Shown here one piece after another: positions 11,826 to 36,497 of a stretch of DNA of 36,686 nt. Position numbers and translations under genes: made by a program. Origin of the DNA: Deltaproteobacteria bacterium (lineage in GTDB: Bacteria > Desulfobacterota > Binatia > UBA9968); the NCBI GenBank assembly GCA_030688735.1, contig JAUYJC010000284.1, positions 1-36,686 of the forward strand, read 5' to 3'. Each line of letters begins with the position of its first letter. The stretch's first letter is position 1. The notes under the pieces were generated by a model. The model searched no databases. It saw only the letters and a program-made list of their open reading frames with translations, and was not told the origin of the DNA.

Positions 11826-14255
<2,430 letters not shown>

Positions 14256-22981: not shown

Positions 22982-23446
22982 TTACTGATTCTCACCAGCG
23001 CGAGCCTGCTGTAACGCCTCGACGATGGAGTCGGCCTCCAAACCCAGCTCCAACGTTTCGATCAGGTCGCTATAGCGAGCGGGGTCGATCGCTTCTTTCA
23101 CCGCCGGCTCAAAGACATGATACACCTCTAACCCCAGCTCAACCCCCCCGAGAGGGCCGGCATAGGTCGGATCTCCGCGAGTCATGGTTTCGAACTGCAC
23201 GCGAGCGGCATCGACGTTCGGCGCACCCAGGAGCACCACAAGTTTGTCCTTACCGTACTCCTCCGCGAGTTGTTTGACGCGACCTTGAACCTCAAGGTCC
23301 ACCGCACCAGCGGCTGTTCAAACGAAGCACTGAGTCGTCGCGTAGACGACCTCGGCGCCCAGATTTTCAATGGCCTGCTCGATGGTATGCGCCGGCACGC
23401 CGTCGCGCTCGCCGAGAATCGCTATTTTTTTCCCTCGAAACTCCAT
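22982..23446 (-). CDS. grdA: Glycine-reductase-like selenoprotein A (Sec43)
   Basis: A 154-residue selenoprotein. From the ATG at 23446 (GGAGG about 9 bases upstream) the frame reads MEFRGKKIAILGERDG, then TTQCFV-U-TAAGAVDLE with TGA at 23320-23318 as codon 43, and continues through LGAPNVDA, GDPTYAGPLGGVELGLEVYH to the stop. CxxU followed by TAAGA is the redox centre of GrdA: the selenol becomes carboxymethylated by protein B and is then cleaved by protein C to acetyl phosphate or a related acyl phosphate. Length and Sec position match clostridial GrdA (Sec44). A perfect stem with a GGU loop follows the UGA. Ordinary calling would give only the last 106 residues from 23302. It is the last of the four grd genes here. 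Confidence 0.95.
23281..23299 (-). promoter_or_regulatory. Candidate SECIS hairpin of grdA
   Basis: On the mRNA strand, 18 bases after the UGA, GACCTTGA and TCAAGGTC form a perfect 8-bp stem around a GGT (GGU) loop. Position, length and GU-bearing loop fit a bacterial SECIS bound by SelB. The stem also encodes part of the protein (VDLEVQG). Confidence 0.6.
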
Positions 23447-23485: not shown

Positions 23486-24931
23486 TCAGGGATGCCGTTC
23501 TAACATGACCGACATGCCGTCGCTCAGCTGCGTCATCTGCCCTAGAAATAGACTAGCGCGCGCAAGAAGGAAACAGCGCTGGAAGTAGCCTTGAGTCAGC
23601 CCCTGATACGCGTGAGGCACATACGCCAACGCCGACGCGATATGGCCCTGCGTTGGAGCGTAGCCTGGCAGTCCTTTCTCTTTCATGAACATGGGAATTT
23701 CCGTCTTCGCGAGTTTCCCCGCCTTAACCAGCACTGCAGCCAGCATGCGATAGTTCCGCTCCGCCACGTCGCCGCCGTTGGCCGGTAATGTGATCTCCGG
23801 ATTATGCAGCTCTGTGACAAACTTATCAACGTGCGGCACTTCCAGCGCCAGACGATTCAACGGATCGATGACGAGGCTTTTCAATTGTTGATCCAACGAA
23901 GCACCGGCGGAAACTGGATGCCGTCCGACGCTGGCAAGATTGACGATCGGACTTTTACCGTCGTCTTGGCCGATCCAGACGGCCACGGCAGCCTGCATAT
24001 CCTCCAGTACCGGCATGTTCTTTTCCATATGGTACAGAAACTTCATGCCGAGCTTGGGCAACGACGAACCGCCGACGACGATGATGTTCTCGACGACACC
24101 GCTGTGCACCAACGCCGCAGCCGTGACCAGCGCTGGAATCGGCGCAGCGCAAAAGTCCTTGATGTCGAATCCGGAGGCCATGTCGCAGCCGCTAAATTCA
24201 GCGATCGCCTTTGCCAGGTTGCCGCCGCCGCGCTGATAGCGATCGCCGACGGCCTCCTCAGAACAACCCAGGACGAAACCGACATCATGCTTTTTCAGTC
24301 CGTCATTTCTAACGAAGATCTCTTCAAGCGCCAGGGCCGCCGACACTTTGCCGCACAGGTTCTCCAATAGCACCATCGCTGAAAGCGAGTCGTCTTCTTG
24401 GTGGCCGTTGGCGATCCAACCGACGGCCTCCGGATCGACGCCGGCAAACAAGGGCAGGCCATCCCCTTCTGTGATTTTCGCCCTAAGTCCGTTTGCGTTG
24501 ACGAGGTTGGGTGAAGACGCGACCAGCGGCTTGCAAACAGGCGACTGCTGGAGAATCGGCGCTGTCTCTTCCCAGAAACGGTCAAGCAACACAACATGCC
24601 TGAACGGGTCTGCCAGCGCGACCAGCGCAAGAAATAGTCTTTCGTCGATGACGCTCCCGAACGATTGTCGTTCTTCGCTCAGCGCGGCTTGATGGCCAAA
24701 CCACGGGCGAGCGATCTCGGAGAGCCTTTCCGGTGACTGCTGCCCGACAAAAACTTGATTGGGGAGATAATCCCGCGCTTCGGCGTAGGTTCGTAGCTTG
24801 CCGTTCAACTCCTGGAGACGCGCCGGATTGGCGGCGATTTCTCTATCGGGTTTTGAGCCGTAGCGTGTCAGACCGGGCGTGTGAATCAATACGTTGGCGG
24901 CTGCTTTAACGACTGGTGTGAGATTTGCCAT
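23486..24931 (-). CDS. grdC: Glycine/sarcosine/betaine reductase component C subunit beta-like (GrdC)
   Basis: A 481-residue thiolase/FabH-fold protein matching GrdC. It opens with KAAANVLIHTPGLTRYG, and the core reads VGDRYQRGGGNLAKAIAEF, then the likely active-site cysteine in IKDFCAAPIPALV and VVGGSSLPKLGMKF. In the clostridial system protein C (GrdC plus GrdD) takes the acyl group from the GrdA selenol and phosphorolyses it to acetyl phosphate. It is somewhat shorter than the roughly 510 residues I recall for clostridial GrdC. The partner grdD is not in the window. It lies between grdE (39 bases upstream) and grdA (39 bases downstream) on the same strand. Confidence 0.9.
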   Translation of the reverse strand: MANLTPVVKAAANVLIHTPGLTRYGSKPDREIAANPARLQELNGKLRTYAEARDYLPNQVFVGQQSPERLSEIARPWFGHQAALSEERQSFGSVIDERLFLALVALADPFRHVVLLDRFWEETAPILQQSPVCKPLVASSPNLVNANGLRAKITEGDGLPLFAGVDPEAVGWIANGHQEDDSLSAMVLLENLCGKVSAALALEEIFVRNDGLKKHDVGFVLGCSEEAVGDRYQRGGGNLAKAIAEFSGCDMASGFDIKDFCAAPIPALVTAAALVHSGVVENIIVVGGSSLPKLGMKFLYHMEKNMPVLEDMQAAVAVWIGQDDGKSPIVNLASVGRHPVSAGASLDQQLKSLVIDPLNRLALEVPHVDKFVTELHNPEITLPANGGDVAERNYRMLAAVLVKAGKLAKTEIPMFMKEKGLPGYAPTQGHIASALAYVPHAYQGLTQGYFQRCFLLARASLFLGQMTQLSDGMSVMLERHP

Positions 24932-24970: not shown

Positions 24971-26275
24971 CTAGTAGGCGTTGCAGACCCAGGACTCCTT
25001 GCCCCAGTTATCGACGCCGCCGATCACCATGTCGCGGGCGTCCAACGTTAACTGGCCTTTCGCCTCGGCGACCGGCGCTCCCGGATAACTCAAAATCTGC
25101 ACCCGTTCGTAGGGACCGACGAGACGTTCCATCTCGGGCAGCTCCAACCAGCGATCGCGGCTTCCCGTGCTCACCACGGCATCCGCCTCCGGAACATAGA
25201 ACAGTAGCGGCGAGTCGACGCCGTCTTTTCCCCCATACTCATAGGTCACCAGCACGGTGTCGATGCCGCGCCGCTCGCAGGCGCGCACCGTCAGCATCAC
25301 ATCGACAAAGGCGTTGCCCGAACCGAGCCATGCCACCAGCGCCCCTTCGGCGCCCAGCGTCACCGCCAGTTGCGCGGCGTTCAGCGCGATGACTTCTTTG
25401 CCGTGAAAGGTTTCGTAGCGAATGCGCTGCAAGATCATGCCGAGAAAATTCAAACGCCGGCCATGATCCCGGTAGAGGCCGAGCACCAGCGGATGATTCT
25501 GCCAGTCCCAGGTGATCGGAAAATAGCCGATGCCGCGGGTCGCATTGACGGCCATGGCGCAGTCGAGCAACTCGTTGGGATGGACGACCGTCGAGAGCGA
25601 TTCCCGTATCGGCAAACCGTAATAACTCACGCCCGAGTGCACATGATGATCGTCGGTCAAGCAACCCTGAATCAATACCACGTTGGGCAACTCCGGACGT
25701 CGAACGCTCAAATCGTAAATCTCGACTCCGCTGGGCTCGACGCCAATGGTGGTTTCCGCGACGCGGCGGGCGACCTGAAACTCCGCGGCTTGAATCGCCG
25801 TATGCGCATCCAACTCCGAAAGGCCATCGCGAAGTTTCATGATTAACACGAGGTGCGCCAATGCACCGAACTTGGATGCCGCCGCTCCCGCGCCGCACAT
25901 GTCCAGCAGCGCGCTGCGCTGCACGCCCAAACCAGCTCTTACGGTTCCCTCATAGGCGGCCGTCGCGACCACCGTCATGCCGGATAAGCGATGGGTGCGG
26001 CCATCGCCCACCGCTTCGACGGGCCCAAGGATTCCCGGAAAGACCTGGCCGTTGCCGCTCACTTTCACTCTCGGTTCGACCAGGTCGCGAATCCCGGTGA
26101 TGCGCACCTTGTCCCCTGGGCGCACCACGGCTAACGATGCCTCCGCGATTCGTTCATCGCGTAGGATCATTGCTTCGAGCGGGGGGCCATCGACTTCCAA
26201 CATTCCGTCTTGATAGCGAAACGTCCGTCCCAAGCGGATTTGTTTTACCGGATAATCTGCCAGTTCGAGCCGCAT
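24971..26275 (-). CDS. grdE: GrdE-like component B subunit, copy 1
   Basis: A 434-residue Gly_reductase (PF09338) protein. It reads MRLELADYPVKQIRLG, GIRDLVEPRVKV, FPGILGPVEAVGDGRTH, VLIQGCLTD, TWDWQNHPL, LNFLGMI, and a terminal WVCNAY. In clostridia GrdE is made as a proprotein, cut at an internal cysteine to give a pyruvoyl group that binds the amine substrate as a Schiff base. From memory of that region the cysteine should sit near residue 246-250, where this protein has NATRGIG. The nearest cysteines are Cys205 (QGC) and Cys239. So either Cys205 has taken over or there is no pyruvoyl. It lies 4 bases downstream of grdB, as expected for the two halves of component B. Confidence 0.88.
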   Translation of the reverse strand: MRLELADYPVKQIRLGRTFRYQDGMLEVDGPPLEAMILRDERIAEASLAVVRPGDKVRITGIRDLVEPRVKVSGNGQVFPGILGPVEAVGDGRTHRLSGMTVVATAAYEGTVRAGLGVQRSALLDMCGAGAAASKFGALAHLVLIMKLRDGLSELDAHTAIQAAEFQVARRVAETTIGVEPSGVEIYDLSVRRPELPNVVLIQGCLTDDHHVHSGVSYYGLPIRESLSTVVHPNELLDCAMAVNATRGIGYFPITWDWQNHPLVLGLYRDHGRRLNFLGMILQRIRYETFHGKEVIALNAAQLAVTLGAEGALVAWLGSGNAFVDVMLTVRACERRGIDTVLVTYEYGGKDGVDSPLLFYVPEADAVVSTGSRDRWLELPEMERLVGPYERVQILSYPGAPVAEAKGQLTLDARDMVIGGVDNWGKESWVCNAY

Positions 26276-26279
26276 TGTT

Positions 26280-27620
26280 TTACCCGCTCACCGTCATGTT
26301 CGGTGTAAACAGCGTCGGTCCTTTGACTTCGGCTCCGAGTGCGTTGAGTGCCGTCTGAACGATTTCGCGGCGCAGCCGCGCATCAAGTTCCGGCGGTAAA
26401 CTCGGATCGCCGCAGGGATGCGGAATGCTGACGCCTTTGACGATACGATTGGCACGCACCTGCTCCGCCACCGGATACATCGCGGTGACCAGAGCCACCG
26501 GAAGTCCTGCCTTCTCAAGTTCTTTGCTCATCACAGCACCGCTGCGACTACAGGTCCCTCACGTGGCGACCAACAGCACTCCTTCGACACCGTTCTTTCT
26601 TAAATCAGCCGCAATCTCCTGGCCGATCCGGCGCATGACCGCCGGCGAACCTTGGTTACCGGGAACCACATAAAAAGCCGGGTAGAGTTTCCCTGGACCG
26701 ATCACGCCTTCTGCTTCCAAGGCACGCAACGCATCGAGCGGAACCCCATAGTGAGGATTCTTGTTCATGTAGGCAACGTTGTAGCCGCCATGAACCGCTT
26801 CCCACTTCCCTGGCTCCAGTTCTTTGAGCTCGGCGACGTTGTATTGTTGCCAATGCGTGTTGCGGTAAGTCTTGAACCGATCCGGATTGCCCCACGGCAC
26901 CACGCCGCTGGTGGTGATCACGGCGATCTTGCGGTCTTTAAGTTGAGTGAGCGGCAGCGCCGGCGCGATATCATCCCAAGCCTCCATCGGCACTTCGGTG
27001 ACAAAGGGCTCATGCTTGATTTTTTTGAGCAGCATATCGATGGCGCGGTCGACCCCGGGACGATCGGTCTTTTCCAGACGCCGGATGCCGCGCGCGAGGT
27101 AACCTTCCGGCAGCGCAGGACCGATGTTGTCGCCACGGGAAAGGCGCGCGACAAATTTCGCTACCGCTTTTAAAGCGTCCGTCATGCCGGCGGCGGTCTC
27201 CGTCGTCGGCAAGCAATAGACGCGGGGATTGGCAAAGTCGCGATAGGTTCCCACCGCGGGGTTGTCTTCGTGCATCGCCGTGACGCAGGGAATTTCGAGA
27301 GCCGCAGCCACCGTGTTGCAAATCTCGACGCAGCTCAGGCCGTAGCGCCCGGAGTTGAAGGCCGGCCCCGCGACGAGGACTTGGGGGTTGCGTATGCGCA
27401 CGGCATCGAGAAGCGCCTTCATGGCATCTTCATTGTGTTCATGGAAGTAGTTATCGCCATAGTAAATCGTGCAAGCGATCTTCGCTTCCTCGCCAAGCTG
27501 CGACTGAAGACCGCGGGCCGCCCCCGCCGCATTCTCGATCACACCGACGGACATCCCCGCCTTTACCTCACCGCCGAGGCCGGCGAAGAATTGGTTGACA
27601 ACATGGACAATCGTGGTCAT
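26280..27620 (-). CDS. grdB: Glycine/sarcosine/betaine reductase selenoprotein B-like (Sec354)
   Basis: A 446-residue selenoprotein. The frame from the ATG at 27620 (AAGGGGG 8 bases upstream) runs through VVNQFFAGLGGEVKAG, FNSGRYG and GVVPWGNPDRF, then LLVAT-U-GTCSRSGAVMSKE with TGA at 26561-26559 as codon 354, and on through ANRIVKGVSIPHPCGDP to the stop at 26280. The UGTC element with this context is the catalytic site of GrdB/GrgB/GrbB, which attacks the alpha carbon of the amine bound to GrdE and hands the carboxymethyl group to GrdA. Clostridial GrdB has UxxCxxC; here the second cysteine is Ser. The substrate could be glycine, sarcosine, betaine or another amine. A UGA-as-stop reading gives two false genes. 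Confidence 0.95.
26532..26546 (-). promoter_or_regulatory. Candidate SECIS hairpin of grdB
   Basis: Twelve bases after the UGA, CGCAGC and GCTGTG pair over 6 bp (one G-U) around a GGT (GGU) loop. The loop is the same as in grdA, and position and size fit a bacterial SECIS. Confidence 0.5.
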
Positions 27621-27650
27621 GGCAACACCCCCTTGAAAGTTAAAAGAACC

Positions 27651-28712
27651 CTACTGAAACAGCCCTTCTTTTTCCAGCTTTCTGACGATTCTGTCATCGA
27701 TGACATCTTCGATCTTGAGCTGGCGAATTTTTTCATTCGTGTTTTCGAATAAGCGCATGGTATTCCGTATCCCATCAGCGCTGGGAATGATCCGCTTGTC
27801 ATAATACGTCTTCATCCTTTCATACCCTTCCGCAGCGTCTTCCGCTCGTTGCAAATGTAGAGCCTTGGTTAAACTCTTCATGACCGTTTCTTTGTTGGCT
27901 GGAGTCTGAATAAAGACAATCGTATCGACCAACGCTCGCAGCGTCTTTTCCACAACATCCGGCGATTGAGTGACGAAACTCCGCCGCGCAAGCAGCGCGG
28001 TGCTCTGGTACGGGACTCCCAGTTCGGAAAGATCGGCGAGAATGCGAAACCCTTGCTGTTTTAAAGTGGCGGCGAAAGCGTAGCCAACCGCCGCTCCATC
28101 GATGGCGCCGGAGGCCAGAGCCTGCGCGCGCACCGCGTCATTGCCAACCACTCGGATGGCAATATTGTCCCGCTTCGGATCAAGTCCCCAATGCTGCAGC
28201 GCCAACATTGTAAAAACCCATGTGCCGCCGCCGATGCTGGTCACCGCGAGCCGTTTATTTTTGAGGTCCGAAGGCGTCTTGATTTGCGGAGCCACAATGA
28301 ACGCCCCGGTGAGCTTGTTTACCAGGCCGGCAATAAACGCAACGTCGGAACCGCCGGCGATAGCGCCGAGGGTCGCTCCCGAAGCGGAGCCGGTGTTGAA
28401 TTGAGAGCTGCCTCTGGATAAAGCGGTCATCGCAACGGAACCTGTTGCCACGTAAATGATCTCCGCATCTAAATCATACTTGCGAAAGAAGTTCTGGTCC
28501 TTAGCGACAAAAAGAACCCCCTCGCGCTCACTAAAACTCGCGAAGGTAATGACGACCTTGGTTAGGCCGAAGGCCGTTCCCCCACCAAGCCCGAAGAGTA
28601 AGGCAAAGAAACTTAAGAAAAGTGCCGCAAGCCATTGCCTCCTTCTCGATCTTTTCGGCAAGTCGCTAACGATTTTTTTTGATTTCAGCATAACGGTAAC
28701 CGTTAAACTCAT
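27651..28712 (-). CDS. NMT1/THI5-like ABC solute-binding protein, copy 1
   Basis: A 353-residue periplasmic binding protein of the NMT1/SsuA type. A long basic N-terminus is followed by a signal peptide (about residues 27-49, LAALFLSFFALLFGLGG). The mature part has VVITFASFSEREGVLFVAKDQNFF, IKTPSDLKNKRLAVTSIGGG and the C-terminal DDRIVRKLEKEG. Members bind pyrimidines, taurine-like sulfonates or aromatic acids. It has no permease or ATPase nearby, so it must share a transporter encoded elsewhere or act as a sensor. It is a clear paralogue of the protein at 33029. The start may be the ATG at 28691. It lies 30 bases upstream of grdB on the same strand. Confidence 0.88.
   Translation of the reverse strand: MSLTVTVMLKSKKIVSDLPKRSRRRQWLAALFLSFFALLFGLGGGTAFGLTKVVITFASFSEREGVLFVAKDQNFFRKYDLDAEIIYVATGSVAMTALSRGSSQFNTGSASGATLGAIAGGSDVAFIAGLVNKLTGAFIVAPQIKTPSDLKNKRLAVTSIGGGTWVFTMLALQHWGLDPKRDNIAIRVVGNDAVRAQALASGAIDGAAVGYAFAATLKQQGFRILADLSELGVPYQSTALLARRSFVTQSPDVVEKTLRALVDTIVFIQTPANKETVMKSLTKALHLQRAEDAAEGYERMKTYYDKRIIPSADGIRNTMRLFENTNEKIRQLKIEDVIDDRIVRKLEKEGLFQ
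28691..28705. repeat. 15-bp palindrome next to the alternative start of the NMT1-like gene
   Basis: TAACGGTAACCGTTA is perfectly symmetric around its centre and abuts the ATG at 28691. It could be an operator, but it could equally be chance within the coding N-terminus. Confidence 0.35.
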
Positions 28713-28836
28713 GATCGGATCGAAAAGCAGCCTCTGCTAATATTTCCTCAAAACTGAAAACCACGACAACGCTATCACAAACATCAGTCCGATTATAGCG
28801 CCATGCGCGCTGCGCGGAGCCTACAAGGGCCTCAAG

Positions 28837-30144
28837 CTAGTACCCATGACACACCCAGGTTCCCTCACCCCAAAGATCAACCCCGCCGATGATTGAAACT
28901 CGCGCCTCCAAGCATAGAGGGCCGCGCGCCGAAACCGCGGGCACGCCGGGATAAGAAAGGACCTTAATTTCTTCATAAGGTCCAATAACCTTTTCCATGG
29001 CAGGCAGATCCACCGCCCGGTCAAGACTTCCCGTGGTGACTACGGCGTCCGCTTCCGGAAGATAAAAAAGCAGCGGGCTATCGAGACCCGCTTTACCGCC
29101 ATGTTCATAGGTAACGAGCGTGGTCTTGATGCCGTTGCGCTCGCAGGCCTTCACGGTAAGCATGACGTCGACAAAAGCATTACCGCCGCCAATCCACGTC
29201 ACCAGCGCTCCGTCAGCGTGCAACGCTTTCGCCAGGCGGGCGGCATTCTGGGCTCCGACCTCTTTGCCGTGGGCGGTCTCGAAGCGAATGCGCTGGAGAA
29301 TGACACCACCGAAGTTCAAATCCCGCCCATGAGCCTCGCACAGGCCCAGAACCAGAGGGTGGTTTTGCCAGTCCCAGGTGGTGGGATAATAACCGCGACC
29401 CGAGCGCGTGGTATCGACCGTCACAGCTCCGTCAAAGAGTTCATTGGGATGAACAAAGGTCGCCATGGAATTCCGAAAGCAAAGTCCGTAATACCCGACA
29501 CCGGAATGCACATGTTGAGGGTCGGTGATGCAACCTTGAATCAACATTACTTTCGGCAGCCCGGCAGTTCTGGTTTTGATTTCATAGGTGCGGATTTTTT
29601 CGGGTGTAAGTTCCTCGGTAACTTGAGCGAGGCGCTGAGCGACTTTGAACTCCGCTAATTGGATGGCCGTATGGGCCTCCAACTCGGCCAGTCCCGGGAT
29701 AATGCGAAAACTCACGACCAAATGCACCTGCTTGCTGAAGCGGGAGATATCAGCCCCGGGCCCGGACATGTCCAGGATCGCACTGCGCTGCACCGTGGTT
29801 CCCGCCCGGATCGTACCCTCGTAAGCAGCCGCAGCGATCACGGTCATGCCCGAAAGCCGATGGGTTCTTCCCTCTCCAACATCGCTGACCGGTCCTAAGA
29901 TGCCCGGAAACACCTGGCCGCCGCCGAAAACCTTATATCTCGGCTCAACGATGTCGCGAATCCCGGTGATGCGAACTTTTTCTCCTGGCCCTGCTACGGC
30001 AAGTGCCACATCCGTGATGCGCCGATCCTGCAGGACAAGATCGATCAATGCGTCGTGATCAACCTCCAGTGTCTGCCCCCCGTAGCTAAAATGACGGCCC
30101 AACCGCACCTGTGTTACCGGGAATTCTGCGAGTTCGAGTGTCAT
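28837..30144 (-). CDS. GrdE-like component B subunit, copy 2
   Basis: A 435-residue paralogue of the grdE gene. I start at the ATG at 30144 because MTLELAEFPVTQVRLG aligns with the starts of the other two copies; a frame to 30192 adds a non-aligned tail. It shares GIRDIVEPRYKV, FPGILGPVSDVGEGRTH, IQGCITD, TWDWQNHPL, LNFGGVI and WVCHGY. The stretch matching the pyruvoyl-processing region of clostridial GrdE (VDTTRSGRGYYPT) has no cysteine at all. No grdB-like gene stands beside it, so it must share GrdB with copy 1 or work alone. It sits between two solute-binding-protein genes. Confidence 0.85.
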   Translation of the reverse strand: MTLELAEFPVTQVRLGRHFSYGGQTLEVDHDALIDLVLQDRRITDVALAVAGPGEKVRITGIRDIVEPRYKVFGGGQVFPGILGPVSDVGEGRTHRLSGMTVIAAAAYEGTIRAGTTVQRSAILDMSGPGADISRFSKQVHLVVSFRIIPGLAELEAHTAIQLAEFKVAQRLAQVTEELTPEKIRTYEIKTRTAGLPKVMLIQGCITDPQHVHSGVGYYGLCFRNSMATFVHPNELFDGAVTVDTTRSGRGYYPTTWDWQNHPLVLGLCEAHGRDLNFGGVILQRIRFETAHGKEVGAQNAARLAKALHADGALVTWIGGGNAFVDVMLTVKACERNGIKTTLVTYEHGGKAGLDSPLLFYLPEADAVVTTGSLDRAVDLPAMEKVIGPYEEIKVLSYPGVPAVSARGPLCLEARVSIIGGVDLWGEGTWVCHGY

Positions 30145-30203
30145 GATCTCAAGGCGCAAGCATAAAAAGCAATCCCTTAGTGCAACAGCCAAGGCACAAG
30201 AGG

Positions 30204-31277
30204 CTATTGAATACCCATGATCTTTTTAAAGTCCCGGATATAGGCATTGAGCTTTGGGCCGAGCGCGGGAGTCACAACAAAATCCGGCTGCAGCTGAAAA
30301 TCTGGATACTTGCTGCGCACGCCTTTCATCGCAATCCCCTTGCCTAACTTCGTGGCCAAGAAAGTTTGCACCTCCTCCGATAGAACCCATTCGGCGAAAA
30401 GTAACGTTGCATGAGGATGCGGGGCATTCTTCGCAAGAAATAGACCTTCGGGTTTTACGATCTTCGGCGACAGGACTTTGAATCCCAAGGGCGCCCCCTT
30501 ATCGCGCACCGCGGCCGAGGTCTCGCCATTGATCGCGATGGCGATGGGAAACTCACCCGAACCGACAACCTGGGTGGTCAGAGTTCCCCCGCGTCGATAA
30601 CTAAGATCCTGCTTCGCCAGCTTGGTGAGGTAATCCACGGCCCTTTCCCGCCCCCAGGCCTGCTCCATGGCCGCCAAGATATACCCCGCCTCGTTATCGA
30701 AAAGCATCTTGCCTTTCCAAACAGGGTTCAGCAGATCTTCATAGCTTTGGGGCGCCTGCTCCGGCTTGACAAGACTCGTATTGTAAGTCAGCGCGGTGGT
30801 TAAATGATACATGCTATGCCAGTAACCGCTCGGATCGTAAGTGCCGTCGTAAAAACGATTCCGTCCGGCAATCGGATAGGCGTGGACGAGTCCGTCGTTC
30901 ATAAGCTGATAACCGTAACTCAGGTCGACCTGGATAACATCGACCGCATGCCGTCCGGCGCGCGCCTCATTTAATGCTCGGGTGAGAATTCCTTGCCGAG
31001 GCGAGTAGTAATTTTTGACGGCCAAAAAAGGATAGCGAGCAGTAAAAAGTTTACTCAAGGACGAAAATTGATCTACGGGCAGTGTACCGTAGTAGACAAT
31101 TTCGGCTTCGCCTTGAGCTTCTTTGGCGAGGAAATCTAGTTTTTCTTGGGAATTGAGCGAAGTGAGTTTAACCGTGATCTCGGCCATCGAGGCCGCGTGA
31201 AGCCCCGGCGAGACGAACATGAGAAAAAGAACGTTAGCAATCGCGCCTGTCAAAATCGCCGTGATTATTTTGGCCAT
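30204..31277 (-). CDS. Extracellular solute-binding protein, ferric/PotD-like type
   Basis: A 357-residue periplasmic binding protein. A signal peptide covers about residues 1-28 (ending GLHAAS), and the mature protein contains AEIVYYGTLPVDQFSSLSK, YNTSLVKPEQAP, YEDLLNPVWKGK and a C-terminal SEEVQTFLATKLGKG, the layout of type-2 binding proteins of the FbpA/AfuA group. It is a distant relative of the binding protein at 7399, but no permease or ATPase is near it. AAAGGAG lies before the ATG at 31277. It stands between GrdE-like copies 3 and 2, so it probably captures a compound handled by this locus. Confidence 0.88.
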   Translation of the reverse strand: MAKIITAILTGAIANVLFLMFVSPGLHAASMAEITVKLTSLNSQEKLDFLAKEAQGEAEIVYYGTLPVDQFSSLSKLFTARYPFLAVKNYYSPRQGILTRALNEARAGRHAVDVIQVDLSYGYQLMNDGLVHAYPIAGRNRFYDGTYDPSGYWHSMYHLTTALTYNTSLVKPEQAPQSYEDLLNPVWKGKMLFDNEAGYILAAMEQAWGRERAVDYLTKLAKQDLSYRRGGTLTTQVVGSGEFPIAIAINGETSAAVRDKGAPLGFKVLSPKIVKPEGLFLAKNAPHPHATLLFAEWVLSEEVQTFLATKLGKGIAMKGVRSKYPDFQLQPDFVVTPALGPKLNAYIRDFKKIMGIQ

Positions 31278-31493
31278 GGCTCTCGGCTCCTTTCTAAACG
31301 CTTTTCTTTATCGAATCGTTTCAGCCGGCTTTTTGGGTCGCCGAAAAAACATCTTGCGACCGAGCTCTCTGGCAGTGCTCGCCACAGATGACCGGCCGCC
31401 CCCGAATTAAGTTTCATTCTCACCTTATCGGCACAAACATCGCTCCCGCGCCAGGGCACTCCCGCCATAACCGTCCGTTAACACGATCTTCGT
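31278..31493. other. Intergenic spacer without a supported gene
   Basis: About 215 bases between the binding protein and GrdE-like copy 3. The short frames on both strands show no family resemblance, and no strong promoter or hairpin was found by eye. Confidence 0.4.
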
Positions 31494-32798
31494 TCAGTAG
31501 GTCCGGCATGTCCACGATTGACTACCCCAGTTGTCCACGCCGCCGATCAGCATGTCGCGGGCATCCAGAGTTAATTTCCCTTTCGCCTCGACCCTCGGCG
31601 CTCCGGGGTAGCTCAAAATGGTAAACTTGTCGTAAGGCCCGACGACGCGCTCGGGTTCCGGCAGCTCAAGCCAGCGATCCCGGCTGCCGCTGCTGACAAC
31701 CGCATCCGCTTCCGGGACGTAGTACAGCAAGGGAGAGTCGACGCCGTCCTTGCCACCGAATTCATAGGTCACCAACGTCGTCCTAATTCCACGCCGTTCA
31801 CAATTACGGATCGTCAACATCAATTCAACAAAAGCATTGCCCGAGCCGGTCCACGCCACAAGCGCTCCATGGGCGCCAAGTGTTTGCGCCAACTGCGCCG
31901 TGTTGTGGGCAACGACTTCTTTGCCGTGAAACGTGTCGAATTGAATTCGCTCGATAATGACACCAAGAAAATTTAGCCGCTTGCCGTGCTCACGGCACAG
32001 CCCCAGAGCGAGCGGATGGTTCTGCCAGTCCCAAGTGATGGGGAAGTGACCGACGGCCCTGGTCGTCGCCACCGTCACGGCGCCGTCGATGAGTTCGTTA
32101 GGATGGGCGAATGTCGCCAACGAGTCTCTGATGGGCAGCCCGTAGTAGCTCACCCCCGAGTGCGCGTTATGGCTGTCCGTCAGACAGCCTTGAATGAGGA
32201 CGACTCCCGGCAGTTGCGGCTGTTGCACGCTGAGATCAAAAACAGCCACATCGACTGGTGGTAGTCCAACCGTAACTTGGGCAACTCTCTGCGCCACTTT
32301 AAGTTCCGCGGCCTGAATCGCCGTATGAGCTTCCAGATCCGAGAGACCTTCTCTGAGTTTCATGACCAGCACGAGTCCCGCAAGCACGCTGAAGCGTGAC
32401 GCCTCCGCCCCCGGTCCCCACAGATCGAGGATCGCGCTGCGCTGCACCGCCAAGCCGGCCCGGGCCGTCCCTTGGTAGGCCGCCGTGGCGATTACGGCCA
32501 TTCCCGACAGACGATGGGTTCTGCCATCGCCCACCTGTTCCACGGGGCCAAGCGTTCCCGGAAAGACTTGACCGCCGCCGTCGATTTTCACGCGCGGCTC
32601 GACGATATCCCTGATTCCCGTAACACGCACCTTCTCGCCGGAGTGCACCACCGCCAACGACACTTCTTCGATCCGCGCGTCCTGCGATACCAGATTCAGC
32701 AACGCTTGTTGATCCACTTCCAGCGTCCCGGCGTCGTAGCGAAACGCCCTTGCCAAGCGGATTTGTTTTACCGGAAACTCGGCGAGCTCAAGGCGCAT
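31494..32798 (-). CDS. GrdE-like component B subunit, copy 3
   Basis: A 434-residue paralogue, the same length as copy 1 when started at the ATG 32798 (AGGA 7 bases upstream). The longer start at 32822 is not supported by alignment. It reads MRLELAEFPVKQIRLARAF, GIRDIVEPRVKI, FPGTLGPVEQVGDGRTH, IQGCLTD, TWDWQNHPL, LNFLGVI and WTCRTY. It is closer to copy 1 than to copy 2, pointing to duplication inside the locus. The processing-site region reads VATTRAVGHFPIT, with no cysteine. A structured cloverleaf-like sequence lies 26 bases upstream of the start. Confidence 0.86.
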   Translation of the reverse strand: MRLELAEFPVKQIRLARAFRYDAGTLEVDQQALLNLVSQDARIEEVSLAVVHSGEKVRVTGIRDIVEPRVKIDGGGQVFPGTLGPVEQVGDGRTHRLSGMAVIATAAYQGTARAGLAVQRSAILDLWGPGAEASRFSVLAGLVLVMKLREGLSDLEAHTAIQAAELKVAQRVAQVTVGLPPVDVAVFDLSVQQPQLPGVVLIQGCLTDSHNAHSGVSYYGLPIRDSLATFAHPNELIDGAVTVATTRAVGHFPITWDWQNHPLALGLCREHGKRLNFLGVIIERIQFDTFHGKEVVAHNTAQLAQTLGAHGALVAWTGSGNAFVELMLTIRNCERRGIRTTLVTYEFGGKDGVDSPLLYYVPEADAVVSSGSRDRWLELPEPERVVGPYDKFTILSYPGAPRVEAKGKLTLDARDMLIGGVDNWGSQSWTCRTY

Positions 32799-32824
32799 TA
32801 TCATTCCTGGCGTGCCATTCAAAC

Positions 32825-32912
32825 TGACTCACTCCCAGCTTCAAGCTGGGAGGTTCGTCCCCGGTCGGCCAAAAGCCGACTATACCTCCCAGCCCCCCTG
32901 CGTAGTGAGTCA
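32825..32912. other. Cloverleaf-like structured element in the leader of GrdE-like copy 3
   Basis: The outer stem TGACTCACT (32825-32833) pairs with AGTGAGTCA (32904-32912). Inside, CTCCCAGCTT and AAGCTGGGAG (32832-32852) form one hairpin and GTCGGC-caaaa-GCCGAC (32864-32880) another, and a CCTCCCAG copy near 32885 could compete with the first hairpin. It might be a leader RNA switch for the downstream gene or a MITE-like repeat. It does not look like a tRNA. Confidence 0.5.
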
Positions 32913-33028
32913 CCCTGAGCAAATGCGAAGGGTCTTGTTTTGTAGATCAAGATTCCTCGGCTTCGCCTCGGAATGACAATCTTACTTCGCCTGAAGGCGA
33001 GGGGTTTCCACCATCCCCGAAGGAGACA
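32913..33028. other. Spacer with short hairpin repeats
   Basis: Contains CCTCGGCTTCGCCTCGG (near 32957) and CTTCGCCTGAAGGCGAGG (near 32986), small hairpins of intergenic repeat type that may end the upstream NMT1-like transcript. No gene is seen. Confidence 0.4.
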
Positions 33029-34012
33029 CTAGCCTTCCTTTTCCAATTTTCGCACGATCCGGTCGTCGACAAGCTCCTCGGCTTTAAGCTGGCGAATCTT
33101 GTCGTTGGTCATTCCGAGCAACCGGATGGCATTGCGAATACCGTCGGCGTTGGGATAAATGCGTTTCTCGTAAAGTGTTCTCATCAACTCGTAGCCTTCT
33201 TCGGCATCTTCGAAACGCGGCAGGCGCAGTCCTTTCCAAAGACTAGTCATGACGGCGTTCTTGTTTTCCGGTTTCTCGATGAAGGCCGTTGCCTGAATCA
33301 TCGCCCTGAGAACCTTTTCAACCGTATCCGGAGATGAATTGAGGAAGCTCCGGCGCACAAAGACTCCCGTGCTTTGATAGGGAATCTTCAGTTTGGCGAG
33401 ATCGGCGAGAATGTTGAACCCCTGTCGCTTCAAGACCGAGCCGAAGGTGTAGCCAAAATACGAACCTTCGATCACATTGGTGGCCAACGCCTGCGCCAGA
33501 ACCGCCTCGTCGCCGACGATCCTGAGATTGACGCGGTCGCGCTTGGGCTCGATGCCCCAGTGATCTAAGACCAGCATGGTGATCATCCAGATGCCGCCGC
33601 CGATGCTCTGCACGCCGATGTTTCTCCCCTTTAAGTCAGCCGGAGTCTTGATTTGGGGATGGACGACAAACGTTCCCGTCAACCGGTTCACTAAACCGGC
33701 GACGAACACGCCATCGAGCCCAGCGGCGATGGCGCCGAGGGTCACACCGGTACCGGACCCAAAATAAAATGGCGCTTCTCCCGCCGCCAGCGCCGACAAT
33801 GCCACCGAACCGCTGCGAACATAAACGAGCCGCGCATCCAACCCCTGTTTACGGAAAAAACCTTGGTCCTCGGCGACGAAAAGAGCGCCCGCAGTCCTTT
33901 CATTGAAACTGGCATACGACAGCACCGTTTGAGTAGCCGCGTGAGCGGATGAGAATCCAATTAACAGGATGAAGAGCGCGCCGGCTAAGCCGAGCTTGTG
34001 TTGAAGCATCAT
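33029..34012 (-). CDS. NMT1/THI5-like ABC solute-binding protein, copy 2
   Basis: About 327 residues from the ATG at 34012, which has GGAGG 4 bases upstream; a frame to 34030 exists but lacks a ribosome site. A signal peptide ends at SAHAAT. The mature domain shares with the protein at 27651 the stretches ASFNERTAGALFVAEDQGFF, IKTPADLKGRNIGVQSIGGG and the C-terminal VDDRIVRKLEKEG. No permease or ATPase accompanies it. With the other NMT1-like protein and the ferric-type protein it forms a set of three orphan binding proteins interleaved with the GrdE-like genes. Confidence 0.88.
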   Translation of the reverse strand: MMLQHKLGLAGALFILLIGFSSAHAATQTVLSYASFNERTAGALFVAEDQGFFRKQGLDARLVYVRSGSVALSALAAGEAPFYFGSGTGVTLGAIAAGLDGVFVAGLVNRLTGTFVVHPQIKTPADLKGRNIGVQSIGGGIWMITMLVLDHWGIEPKRDRVNLRIVGDEAVLAQALATNVIEGSYFGYTFGSVLKRQGFNILADLAKLKIPYQSTGVFVRRSFLNSSPDTVEKVLRAMIQATAFIEKPENKNAVMTSLWKGLRLPRFEDAEEGYELMRTLYEKRIYPNADGIRNAIRLLGMTNDKIRQLKAEELVDDRIVRKLEKEG

Positions 34013-34225
34013 CAACCTCCATTCGATCACACGGATGCTTATATAGCTTACGTTGCGAAGGTGTCAATCGAAGCGAACGTAACGGAGAGCTTTTTGCGTG
34101 TAGGGCGAACAGGGAAGTTCATGTACGAAACGTTAGCAAAGCAACGAGCGAATGCGCTTTCAGAAAAGCTCCGATTGGGAGCCTTGCGTTTTCGTTTCAA
34201 CGCTGGACTCGAGAGTCAATTCAGC

Positions 34226-35683
34226 TTAAGCCCAGTAAGTGGTGCGATCGATTGGAATATGCTGCAAGACTTCGCCCGGGACGAATTCTTCCAACTTGAT
34301 GCGCGCCAATGCCTCGTCGGGGCATTTGGATACCGGCGAGAACGGCCGGTCGAGGGGCCGAGTGGCGTCGACGATCATGACGGAAGTTTTTCGCGCGTCG
34401 ACCATTGACGGATCGATCAAACTGCCGCGCATGATTTCCGGAATGATCGAAATCTGGCGGTGCGGCTGAACTCTCGTGGCCAGCGCCCAAAGGATTTCGG
34501 TAGGATTGTAAACGTCGATGTCGTCGTCGAAGACGAAAACATTCTTCGCCCAGTCCCAAGTCAACGCCGCCGCGGCCGCCCGTCCCGGATCGCCCTCGGA
34601 CATTTTTTTCATCGAGATAAAAACATTGAGAAGCGCATGCCGGCCGCTGGCGCAAACCGCCTGGACGCCAGGCACCGCCTCGCGGCAGCGGCGCAGATAA
34701 GCGCCCTCGCGTGCCAGGTCCATCCAGGGCTTATCGCCTTCGGGGGTGATGATCGACACATGCATGGCGTCCCGCCGCCGCGTGATCGCGCGCACTTCAT
34801 AGATCGCCGACTGTTGAAATCCCTGCACGCCCAAATACCCGTTCACCTCGCCGAAGGGACCTTCGACCATGCGCTCGCCGGGTAAAAGCGCGCCTTCGAT
34901 GACGATCTCGGCGTCGGCGGGAACGAGCAACCGCTCGCCCCAAGTTTCCGAGGGAGTGAGGCGCAGCGGCTCCTCCATGTAGCCGCCGATGATTTCGTAT
35001 TCGCTCACCTCGAACGGCCCGCCGTAGCAGGCGCCCATCTGGTAGGCCGGATGATGGCCGATCACCGTCGCCACCGGACATTCTTCGCGCGCTTCGTCGT
35101 AGGCGCGAAAGATACGCCACATATGCTGCAGCGACATGAAAAATCCAGTGTGGTTGCGGTCCTTGACCTCCATGCGGTGGTAGGAGCAGTTGTATACCCC
35201 GCTGTTTCGATCTTCGGCCACGCTCGACATGTCGATGTACGACCCGCCGTCCATCTCGTGATGGCGCATGAGCGGCAGCTCATAAAGATCGACATCGCCG
35301 CCTCGTTGAATCACCTCTTTGACCGGAGCGGAATCTTTGCCGACGACGACGGGGCTAATCTTGTTCGCTTCCCGGCGCAGACACTCCCGCGCCATCTCGG
35401 CGCGGTCCATGTCGCGCGGCAGGCCGAGGGCCACCTGGATTTTCTTTTGGGTGTTCTCGGCGCCGATGACGAGCTTCGTGTCGCTGAGCTTGCCATGAAG
35501 GTTAAGCGGCCGCTCGAAAATCAGCATCGGGAACTTCTTCAGCGCCCCGAGCTGCTTGACGATGGCGGTGACATCGTAGTTCGCCGGGTTGACGGGCTTC
35601 GAGATGGAGACCACCTCGCTCGGATAGGCGCGCCGCATGTCTTCGATAAAAGTTCGTAGGTTTTTTGGCATGTTCTGTTGCAT
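34226..35683 (-). CDS. UbiD family decarboxylase
   Basis: About 485 residues of a UbiD-type decarboxylase that uses prenylated FMN. Recognisable are KNLRTFIEDMRRAYP at the start, FERP near residue 55, NCSYHRMEVKDRNHTGFF (prFMN and metal region), EGPFGEVNGYLG, and the conserved VFDDDIDVYNPTEILWALATRVQPHRQ. Members remove or add carboxyl groups on aromatic or alpha,beta-unsaturated acids. I start at the ATG 35683, since the longer frame to 35785 overlaps the SDR gene and its extra residues come from a GTTCAA repeat; ATG 35671 is the alternative. No ubiX-type gene is in the window. It follows the SDR gene on the same strand. Confidence 0.88.
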   Translation of the reverse strand: MQQNMPKNLRTFIEDMRRAYPSEVVSISKPVNPANYDVTAIVKQLGALKKFPMLIFERPLNLHGKLSDTKLVIGAENTQKKIQVALGLPRDMDRAEMARECLRREANKISPVVVGKDSAPVKEVIQRGGDVDLYELPLMRHHEMDGGSYIDMSSVAEDRNSGVYNCSYHRMEVKDRNHTGFFMSLQHMWRIFRAYDEAREECPVATVIGHHPAYQMGACYGGPFEVSEYEIIGGYMEEPLRLTPSETWGERLLVPADAEIVIEGALLPGERMVEGPFGEVNGYLGVQGFQQSAIYEVRAITRRRDAMHVSIITPEGDKPWMDLAREGAYLRRCREAVPGVQAVCASGRHALLNVFISMKKMSEGDPGRAAAAALTWDWAKNVFVFDDDIDVYNPTEILWALATRVQPHRQISIIPEIMRGSLIDPSMVDARKTSVMIVDATRPLDRPFSPVSKCPDEALARIKLEEFVPGEVLQHIPIDRTTYWA

Positions 35684-35706
35684 GAGTTCGAAGGACTTTT
35701 TACGTC

Positions 35707-35739
35707 TTGAACTGTTTGAACGTTTTGAACGACTTGAAC
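35707..35739. repeat. Four 9-bp-spaced TTGAAC units
   Basis: TTGAAC occurs at 35707, 35716, 35725 and 35734, exactly 9 bases apart, between the SDR and ubiD-like genes. It is a short tandem array, perhaps slippage-derived, and related in sequence to the GTTCAA repeat at 1393. Confidence 0.7.
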
Positions 35740-35753
35740 TCTCCAGCCTCGCC

Positions 35754-36497
35754 TCAATGAAACACACTCCCGCCATCGACCACAATCGCCTGGCCCGTCA
35801 TAAAGTCGCTGTCCGAGGAGGCGAGAAACACCAGCGTTCCGAGCAGATCCTCGGGGGTCTGCAAGCGCTTGATGGAGCGTTCTTTGAGTTGAAGCTCTGT
35901 CAGAGCCTTCGGTGCGTTTTGTCCTTCGTGCTCGACCAGTCCGGGCGCGATGGCGTTAACGCAGATGCCGAACTCGCCGAGCTCGCGCGCGAGCGAGCGG
36001 GTCATGCCGATAAGCGCCGCTTTGGAAGCCACGTAGTGGAGAAAATTCGGCGTGCCCCAGTAAGCGGTCGAAGAGGAGATATTGATGATCTTGCCGCTCA
36101 TTTGTTCTTTCATCTGCGCAAAGACCGCCTTGGCACAGAGAAATGGCCCTTTGATGTTGACCGCCGAAACGCGGTCCCATTCCGCGGCGGTAATCTCATA
36201 AAACGGTTGGCGTTGGATATTGATAAAGATCGCCGCATTGTTGACCAGAATATCGATGCGACCAAAAGTCTTCACCGTCTCCGCAGCCATGCGCGCGGTA
36301 TCTTCCTCCTTCGACACATCGATCTTGAGCGCCAGCGCCTTGCCGCCCTTCGAGTGAATCTCCTCGGCCAGGGGTGCGCCATCAAGAATATCGGCGATGA
36401 CTACCGCGGCACCCTCTGCGGCAAGTTTACGCGCGTAGGTCGCGCCAATATGGCGCGCGCCGCCGGTAACGATCGCGACTTTCCCCGCTAATCTCAT
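35754..36497 (-). CDS. Short-chain dehydrogenase/reductase
   Basis: A 247-residue classical SDR. The NAD(P) loop is TGGARHIG at residues 11-18, the structural NNAA near 86, the catalytic serine in INISSSTAY and the YxxxK pair in YVASK, with the ending TGQAIVVDGGS. It oxidises or reduces a hydroxyl/carbonyl on an unknown small molecule. It lies 10 bases downstream of a phytoene-dehydrogenase-like gene and just upstream of the UbiD gene, all on the minus strand, so the three probably share a transcript and act on successive intermediates. Confidence 0.9.
   Translation of the reverse strand: MRLAGKVAIVTGGARHIGATYARKLAAEGAAVVIADILDGAPLAEEIHSKGGKALALKIDVSKEEDTARMAAETVKTFGRIDILVNNAAIFINIQRQPFYEITAAEWDRVSAVNIKGPFLCAKAVFAQMKEQMSGKIINISSSTAYWGTPNFLHYVASKAALIGMTRSLARELGEFGICVNAIAPGLVEHEGQNAPKALTELQLKERSIKRLQTPEDLLGTLVFLASSDSDFMTGQAIVVDGGSVFH

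Follow-up and report, generated by a model that had tools for sequence, protein, structure and literature searches.

The three GrdE-like proteins encoded on a contig of a Deltaproteobacteria bacterium of the class Binatia (JAUYJC010000284.1, assembly GCA_030688735.1) are probably unprocessed, pyruvoyl-free substrate-binding subunits of a selenium-dependent protein B of the glycine reductase type, in the manner of GrdI and FarE. The stretch analysed, 36,686 nucleotides long and called the window here, carries on its minus strand a glycine-reductase-type cluster: three PF09338 proteins (the family of GrdE, GrdG, GrdI and PrdA), a GrdB and a GrdA that both contain selenocysteine (Sec), and GrdC (Table 1). 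The three GrdE-like copies are intact ORFs, and their products match PF09338 (Gly_reductase, GrdE/G/I) over the full length at 296-315 bits, against a cut-off of 22.2. Copy 1 shares 64% identity with copy 2 and 72% with copy 3, and both keep its conserved motifs; TWDWQNHPL and IQGC(L/I)TD, read as common to the three in the original prediction, are present in all. That prediction held that the proteins lack the cysteine from which clostridial GrdE makes its pyruvoyl group, and that either the cysteine of the QGC motif has become the processing site or the family works without a pyruvoyl, as a new form of the reductase. Work without a pyruvoyl is the reading favoured here, since no protein in a large Cys-less half of the family, to which betaine GrdI belongs, has the processing cysteine.

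Table 1. Genes of the glycine-reductase-type cluster and its neighbours in the window, in order of transcription.
Feature	Coordinates	Strand	Remarks
SDR	35754-36497	-	First in transcription order
UbiD-type decarboxylase	34226-35785	-	After SDR in transcription order
SsuA-like solute-binding protein, upstream of GrdE-like copy 3	33029..34030	-	TIGR01728 48 bits, below cut-off; identified also by comparison of gene neighbours
GrdE-like copy 3, 434 aa	31494..32798 (ORF 31494-32798/804)	-	PF09338 305 bits; solute-binding-protein gene immediately upstream
SBP_bac_8/SBP_bac_6-type solute-binding protein, upstream of GrdE-like copy 2	30204..31277	-	PF13416, PF13343
GrdE-like copy 2, 435 aa	28837..30144 (ORF 28837-30144/47)	-	PF09338 315 bits; solute-binding-protein gene immediately upstream
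NMT1/SsuA-like solute-binding protein, upstream of grdB	27651..28712	-	PF09084, PF13379; TIGR01728 below cut-off
GrdB, Sec-containing protein B subunit	26280..27620	-	TIGR01918 437 bits, cut-off 65; match spans in-frame TGA
GrdE-like copy 1, 434 aa, directly downstream of GrdB	24971..26275	-	PF09338 296 bits
GrdC, protein C beta subunit	23486..24931	-	NF040746 511 bits, cut-off 450
GrdA selenoprotein	22982..23446	-	NF040748 197 bits, cut-off 130
Hydantoinase A and B		-	After GrdA in transcription order

In C. difficile GrdE, the pyruvoyl group is at the N-terminus of the peptide 242-266 (PMC9908766). The corresponding cleavage column was located by alignment with named references from public plasmid records: Acetoanaerobium noterae GrdE, Peptoclostridium acidaminophilum GrdG, a Terrisporobacter PrdA and two GrdI. 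A clostridial GrdE used as the first guide to the column agrees with these references at the site. The GrdI of Enterococcus gilvus adjoins an annotated grdH; that of Acetoanaerobium is unannotated, and owes its name here to its near-identity with the former and its place beside a GrdH-like gene. The column holds Cys in Acetoanaerobium GrdE (residue 242 exactly), GrdG and PrdA, and Phe in the two GrdI. The window proteins bear out the predicted lack of a conserved Cys in the stretch before TWDWQ, and the alignment places none at the cleavage position: all three have Thr in the Cys242 column (Thr246 of copy 1, codon 25538-25540; codons 29407-29409 in copy 2 and 32061-32063 in copy 3). The site motif aligns almost free of gaps, DGAILSGN-C-VSACDKNPTYVHMNNP against DGAVTVAT-T-RAVGHFPITWDWQNHP. 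The Asn before the Cys (GN-C) is also gone, as is the second conserved Cys (246) that follows the cleavage site, where another residue stands and the VSAC motif is absent. Copy 1 and its orthologues have one Cys before TWDWQ (residue 239, in ..LLDCAM..), which is 7 residues off the cleavage column and missing from copies 2 and 3.

Absence of the cysteine extends well beyond the window. PF09338 proteins were gathered from other classes of the phylum as well as from the window's own, in which 33 of 148 genomes carry them. In a non-redundant set of 107, the cleavage column holds Cys only in the five canonical proteins, none from the window's class; elsewhere it holds Thr (44 proteins), Tyr, His, Arg, Leu, Ile, Trp, Ser, Met, Phe, Val, Ala, Gln or Asn. 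On a tree of 92 proteins including the references (support values 92-94, from a short search), Cys versus non-Cys amounts to one change, and a single split holds GrdI and all the Cys-less proteins, with GrdI thus on the side of the window. Elsewhere in the genome that contains the window, there are four more Cys-less GrdE-like paralogues, each near a Sec-containing GrdB, with Thr (contigs C8 and C510), Tyr (contig C12) or His (contig C341) in the column.

The Thr in place of Cys242 might itself be a processing residue, self-cleavage before which would leave a 2-oxobutanoyl group instead of a pyruvoyl. It stands exactly in the cleavage column, in the three copies as in the other Thr proteins, and is followed by Arg or Lys in nearly all. 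The Thr clade itself, however, includes a Val (L053) and an Ala (L062, next to a Sec-containing GrdB), and these together with the clade make up the three changes between Thr and non-Thr on the tree. Its sister group has Met, Leu or Ile at the column, those with Met or Leu having a neighbouring Sec-containing GrdB; Arg is also seen in relatives, and the Asn and the second Cys have disappeared along with the first. The range of residues, with 17 residue changes at the column on the tree, argues that no nucleophile is required at this place. A 2-oxobutanoyl cofactor made from Thr was therefore set aside; as judged from the alignment, a Thr-derived carbonyl is very unlikely. The loss of the pyruvoyl cysteine could in itself also be read as decay, the copies being non-functional duplicates. 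To this we give almost no credence, since the three ORFs are intact, 41 columns are invariant across 43 proteins, and orthologues of all three recur in the same order (UbiD, solute-binding protein, GrdE, solute-binding protein, GrdE, GrdB, GrdE, GrdC, GrdA) in another genome (L064) and in part in L046 and L048. An assembly or pseudogene artefact was rejected on the same-order orthologues in other genomes.

The cysteines conserved in all three copies are exactly those that had been named, in QGC, in CER and at the C-terminus, and they are found in 38, 42 and 42 rows, respectively, of 43 close relatives. Two cysteines of copy 1, Cys333 (25277-25279) and Cys431 (24983-24985), are kept across much of the Cys-less group, in 81 and 66 of the 108 rows of a wider alignment; the same columns are non-Cys in nearly all canonical GrdE. 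The QGC cysteine is Cys205 of copy 1 (codon 25661-25663), and its retention in the three copies and in most close relatives is in favour of its being a new processing site. Against this, the cleavage column is 41 residues further downstream, with few gaps between and no shift of register, and the cysteine would fall where a predicted strand (residues 198-206) ends. Its column is occupied by Leu or Val in the pyruvoyl-bearing GrdE and GrdG and by Pro in GrdI; the five close relatives without the Cys have Tyr, Val, Phe or Ser, and most other Cys-less subfamilies lack it. Processing at QGC is thus highly improbable and is rejected, the cysteine appearing from its position in the alignment to be unrelated to the processing site. 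Copy 1 as modelled by AlphaFold has a mean pLDDT of 86.9 and a pTM of 0.89; a fold search with this model gave no match at E <= 0.001, and a sequence search of the PDB found no relatives. The predicted model of GrdB has a pTM of 0.57. To our knowledge, no protein of this clade has been made or assayed.

The claim of a new form of the reductase was overstated, since Cys-less GrdI and FarE, the subunits for betaine and fluoroacetate, have already been described (PMC10838667), and the absence of the Cys from GrdI is seen here directly. Betaine GrdI resembles the window proteins in being of the PF09338 type, in having no pyruvoyl Cys (Phe, where they have Thr), in the motif HPNE(V/I)LDGA, and in its partnership with a Sec-containing GrdB-type protein. 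Identity is 32%, and copy 1 scores somewhat higher against GrdI (213 bits) than against GrdE (186 bits). The window proteins are nevertheless outside the GrdI clade: the two GrdI form a clade of their own (100%) on a long branch outside the Binatia group. The E. gilvus GrdI cluster, moreover, has GrdD and a BCCT transporter, whereas the window has neither. The fluoroacetate system likewise combines a Cys-less GrdE-type subunit, FarE, with a GrdB-type partner of altered CxxC, FarB (PMC10838667); compared with FarE by model score only, the window proteins reach 110-117 bits on NF053623 (cut-off 675). Clostridial GrdE and sarcosine GrdG are homologous to the window proteins over the full length (31% identity to GrdE) and serve the same A/B/C system, but they carry Cys242, cleaved to pyruvoyl in GrdE, where the window proteins have Thr. 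On the GrdG model NF040793 (cut-off 780) the window proteins score 214-229 bits. PrdA of D-proline reductase is a distant homologue of GrdE; it differs from the window proteins in its pyruvoyl Cys and in an additional N-terminal portion, and their scores against its model are marginal (19-23 bits versus 700). The Binatia proteins are most likely an uncharacterised branch of a known Cys-less kind, and not new enzyme chemistry.

The selenium-dependent partners are intact. GrdB has an in-frame TGA at 26559-26561 (motif VATUGTCSRSGAV), which is conserved in relatives, and GrdA has one at 23318-23320 (QCFVUTAAGA), followed by a hairpin. This hairpin is better than expected by chance (z -2.5), whereas the one after the GrdB TGA is only weakly so (z -1.35). 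The genome also has tRNA-Sec (74 bits) and SelB (420 bits); Sec in both GrdB and GrdA and the Sec machinery, as expected of a glycine-reductase-type system, are all present. Sec is kept in every complete GrdB that was read, which indicates that the catalytic half is intact. The GrdB partners of canonical subunits have UGTCTRCGAT in four of five cases and UGTGTRCGAT in the fifth, whereas those of Cys-less subfamilies have mostly lost one or both of the motif cysteines and few keep both, in a comparison of raw counts that ignores kinship. The window GrdB has Ser for the second Cys (UGTCSRSGAV), and UGTSTRSGAA and UGTSTRCGAA occur in other Cys-less subfamilies. FarB has been published as lacking the CxxC (PMC10838667). 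The loss of these cysteines is tied only loosely to a Cys-less subunit, since betaine GrdH keeps the CxxC (UGTCTRCGAT) and PrdB, like the window GrdB, has Ser at the second place (UGTCHRSA). As GrdH retains both cysteines, the window GrdB is not identical to it.

Three GrdE-like genes beside one GrdB are new here, as is a radiation of Cys-less subunits in Binatia with a conserved pairing of solute-binding protein and GrdE. Within the Thr group and its sisters, upstream DNA could be read for 51 GrdE-like genes: a solute-binding-protein gene lies directly upstream in 17 and grdB in 23, nine of the latter with a solute-binding protein before grdB. On these counts, substrate-specific pairs of solute-binding protein and GrdE are proposed. 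GrdE-like genes that have no grdB of their own sit directly behind a solute-binding-protein gene, in an order kept across genomes (window 28837-34030; L064 2593-6460), and no permease gene is adjacent to these pairs. All solute-binding proteins of the window score under the curated specificity cut-offs. Elsewhere in the window, a 682-aa ORF (11829-13874) has a tRNA-guanine transglycosylase domain fused to a Methyltransf_30 domain. A division of labour within the cluster is conceivable, in which only copy 1 forms protein B, while copies 2 and 3 are helpers that receive substrate from the solute-binding proteins or stabilise GrdB. Only copy 1 adjoins grdB, copies 2 and 3 being next to solute-binding-protein genes, and processed GrdE reportedly stabilises GrdB, going by the title of a 2007 Arch Microbiol paper cited in PMC3091704. 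Such a role is unlikely given the similarity of copies 2 and 3 to copy 1, including the conserved motifs, and the partnership of the same kind of subunit with GrdB elsewhere. With all three copies as subunits of protein B, one GrdB would be shared among them.

Of the two parts of protein C expected in a glycine-reductase-type system, GrdC is present and GrdD is not. None of the class's 148 genomes has a match above cut-off to GrdD, the subunit that forms acetyl phosphate, although GrdC and GrdA stand beside the GrdE-like genes, and this absence is likewise a new observation. GrdD is present in G138, a genome of the same phylum. In G033, a genome with a canonical GrdE, no GrdD was found either; its absence is thus not tied to the loss of the cysteine. 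Weak matches to the GrdD model in Binatia (about 18-28 bits, profile positions about 110-240) were set aside as far under the 350-bit cut-off, and control genomes, among them E. coli and B. subtilis, likewise give matches to the model below the cut-off. The Binatia matches presumably represent the related PlsX protein. The missing GrdD raises a separate question, that of energy recovery from the reaction in these organisms.

In glycine and sarcosine reductases, the amine of the substrate is thought to form a Schiff base with the protein carbonyl, which betaine and fluoroacetate cannot do (PMC10838667). Since the subunits for the latter two have no Cys and form no Schiff base, the window substrates should be other than amines of this kind; by this analogy they are probably neither primary nor secondary amines. 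A pyruvoyl-free subunit would hold a substrate of the X-CH2-COO- type, or a relative of it, beside the GrdB selenocysteine, a Schiff base being impossible or unneeded. The selenolate would attack the carbon, X would leave, and the carboxymethyl-type group would pass to the GrdA selenocysteine and from there to GrdC. Each paralogue would probably set its own substrate preference, fed by the adjoining solute-binding protein. A broader proposal, doubtful as a whole but possible, is that the Binatia system is modular, pyruvoyl-free and GrdD-free: one Sec-containing GrdB would serve several GrdE-like subunits that can replace one another, set the specificity and are each paired with a solute-binding protein. 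Various non-amine X-CH2-COO- compounds would be cleaved in this way, and GrdC would hand the acyl group to an acceptor other than phosphate (CoA, for example).

A search of one literature collection found no paper naming both Binatota and glycine reductase, and a broader search listed none on Binatia. Pyruvoyl-bearing GrdE makes up just one side of the family. The other side includes a large and apparently uncharacterised set of pyruvoyl-free, selenium-dependent reductases in soil and groundwater Binatia. If the substrates are as proposed, each subfamily would correspond to a compound of its own, cleaved through attack by the selenolate; these compounds may be halogenated, quaternary-ammonium or sulfonated acids.
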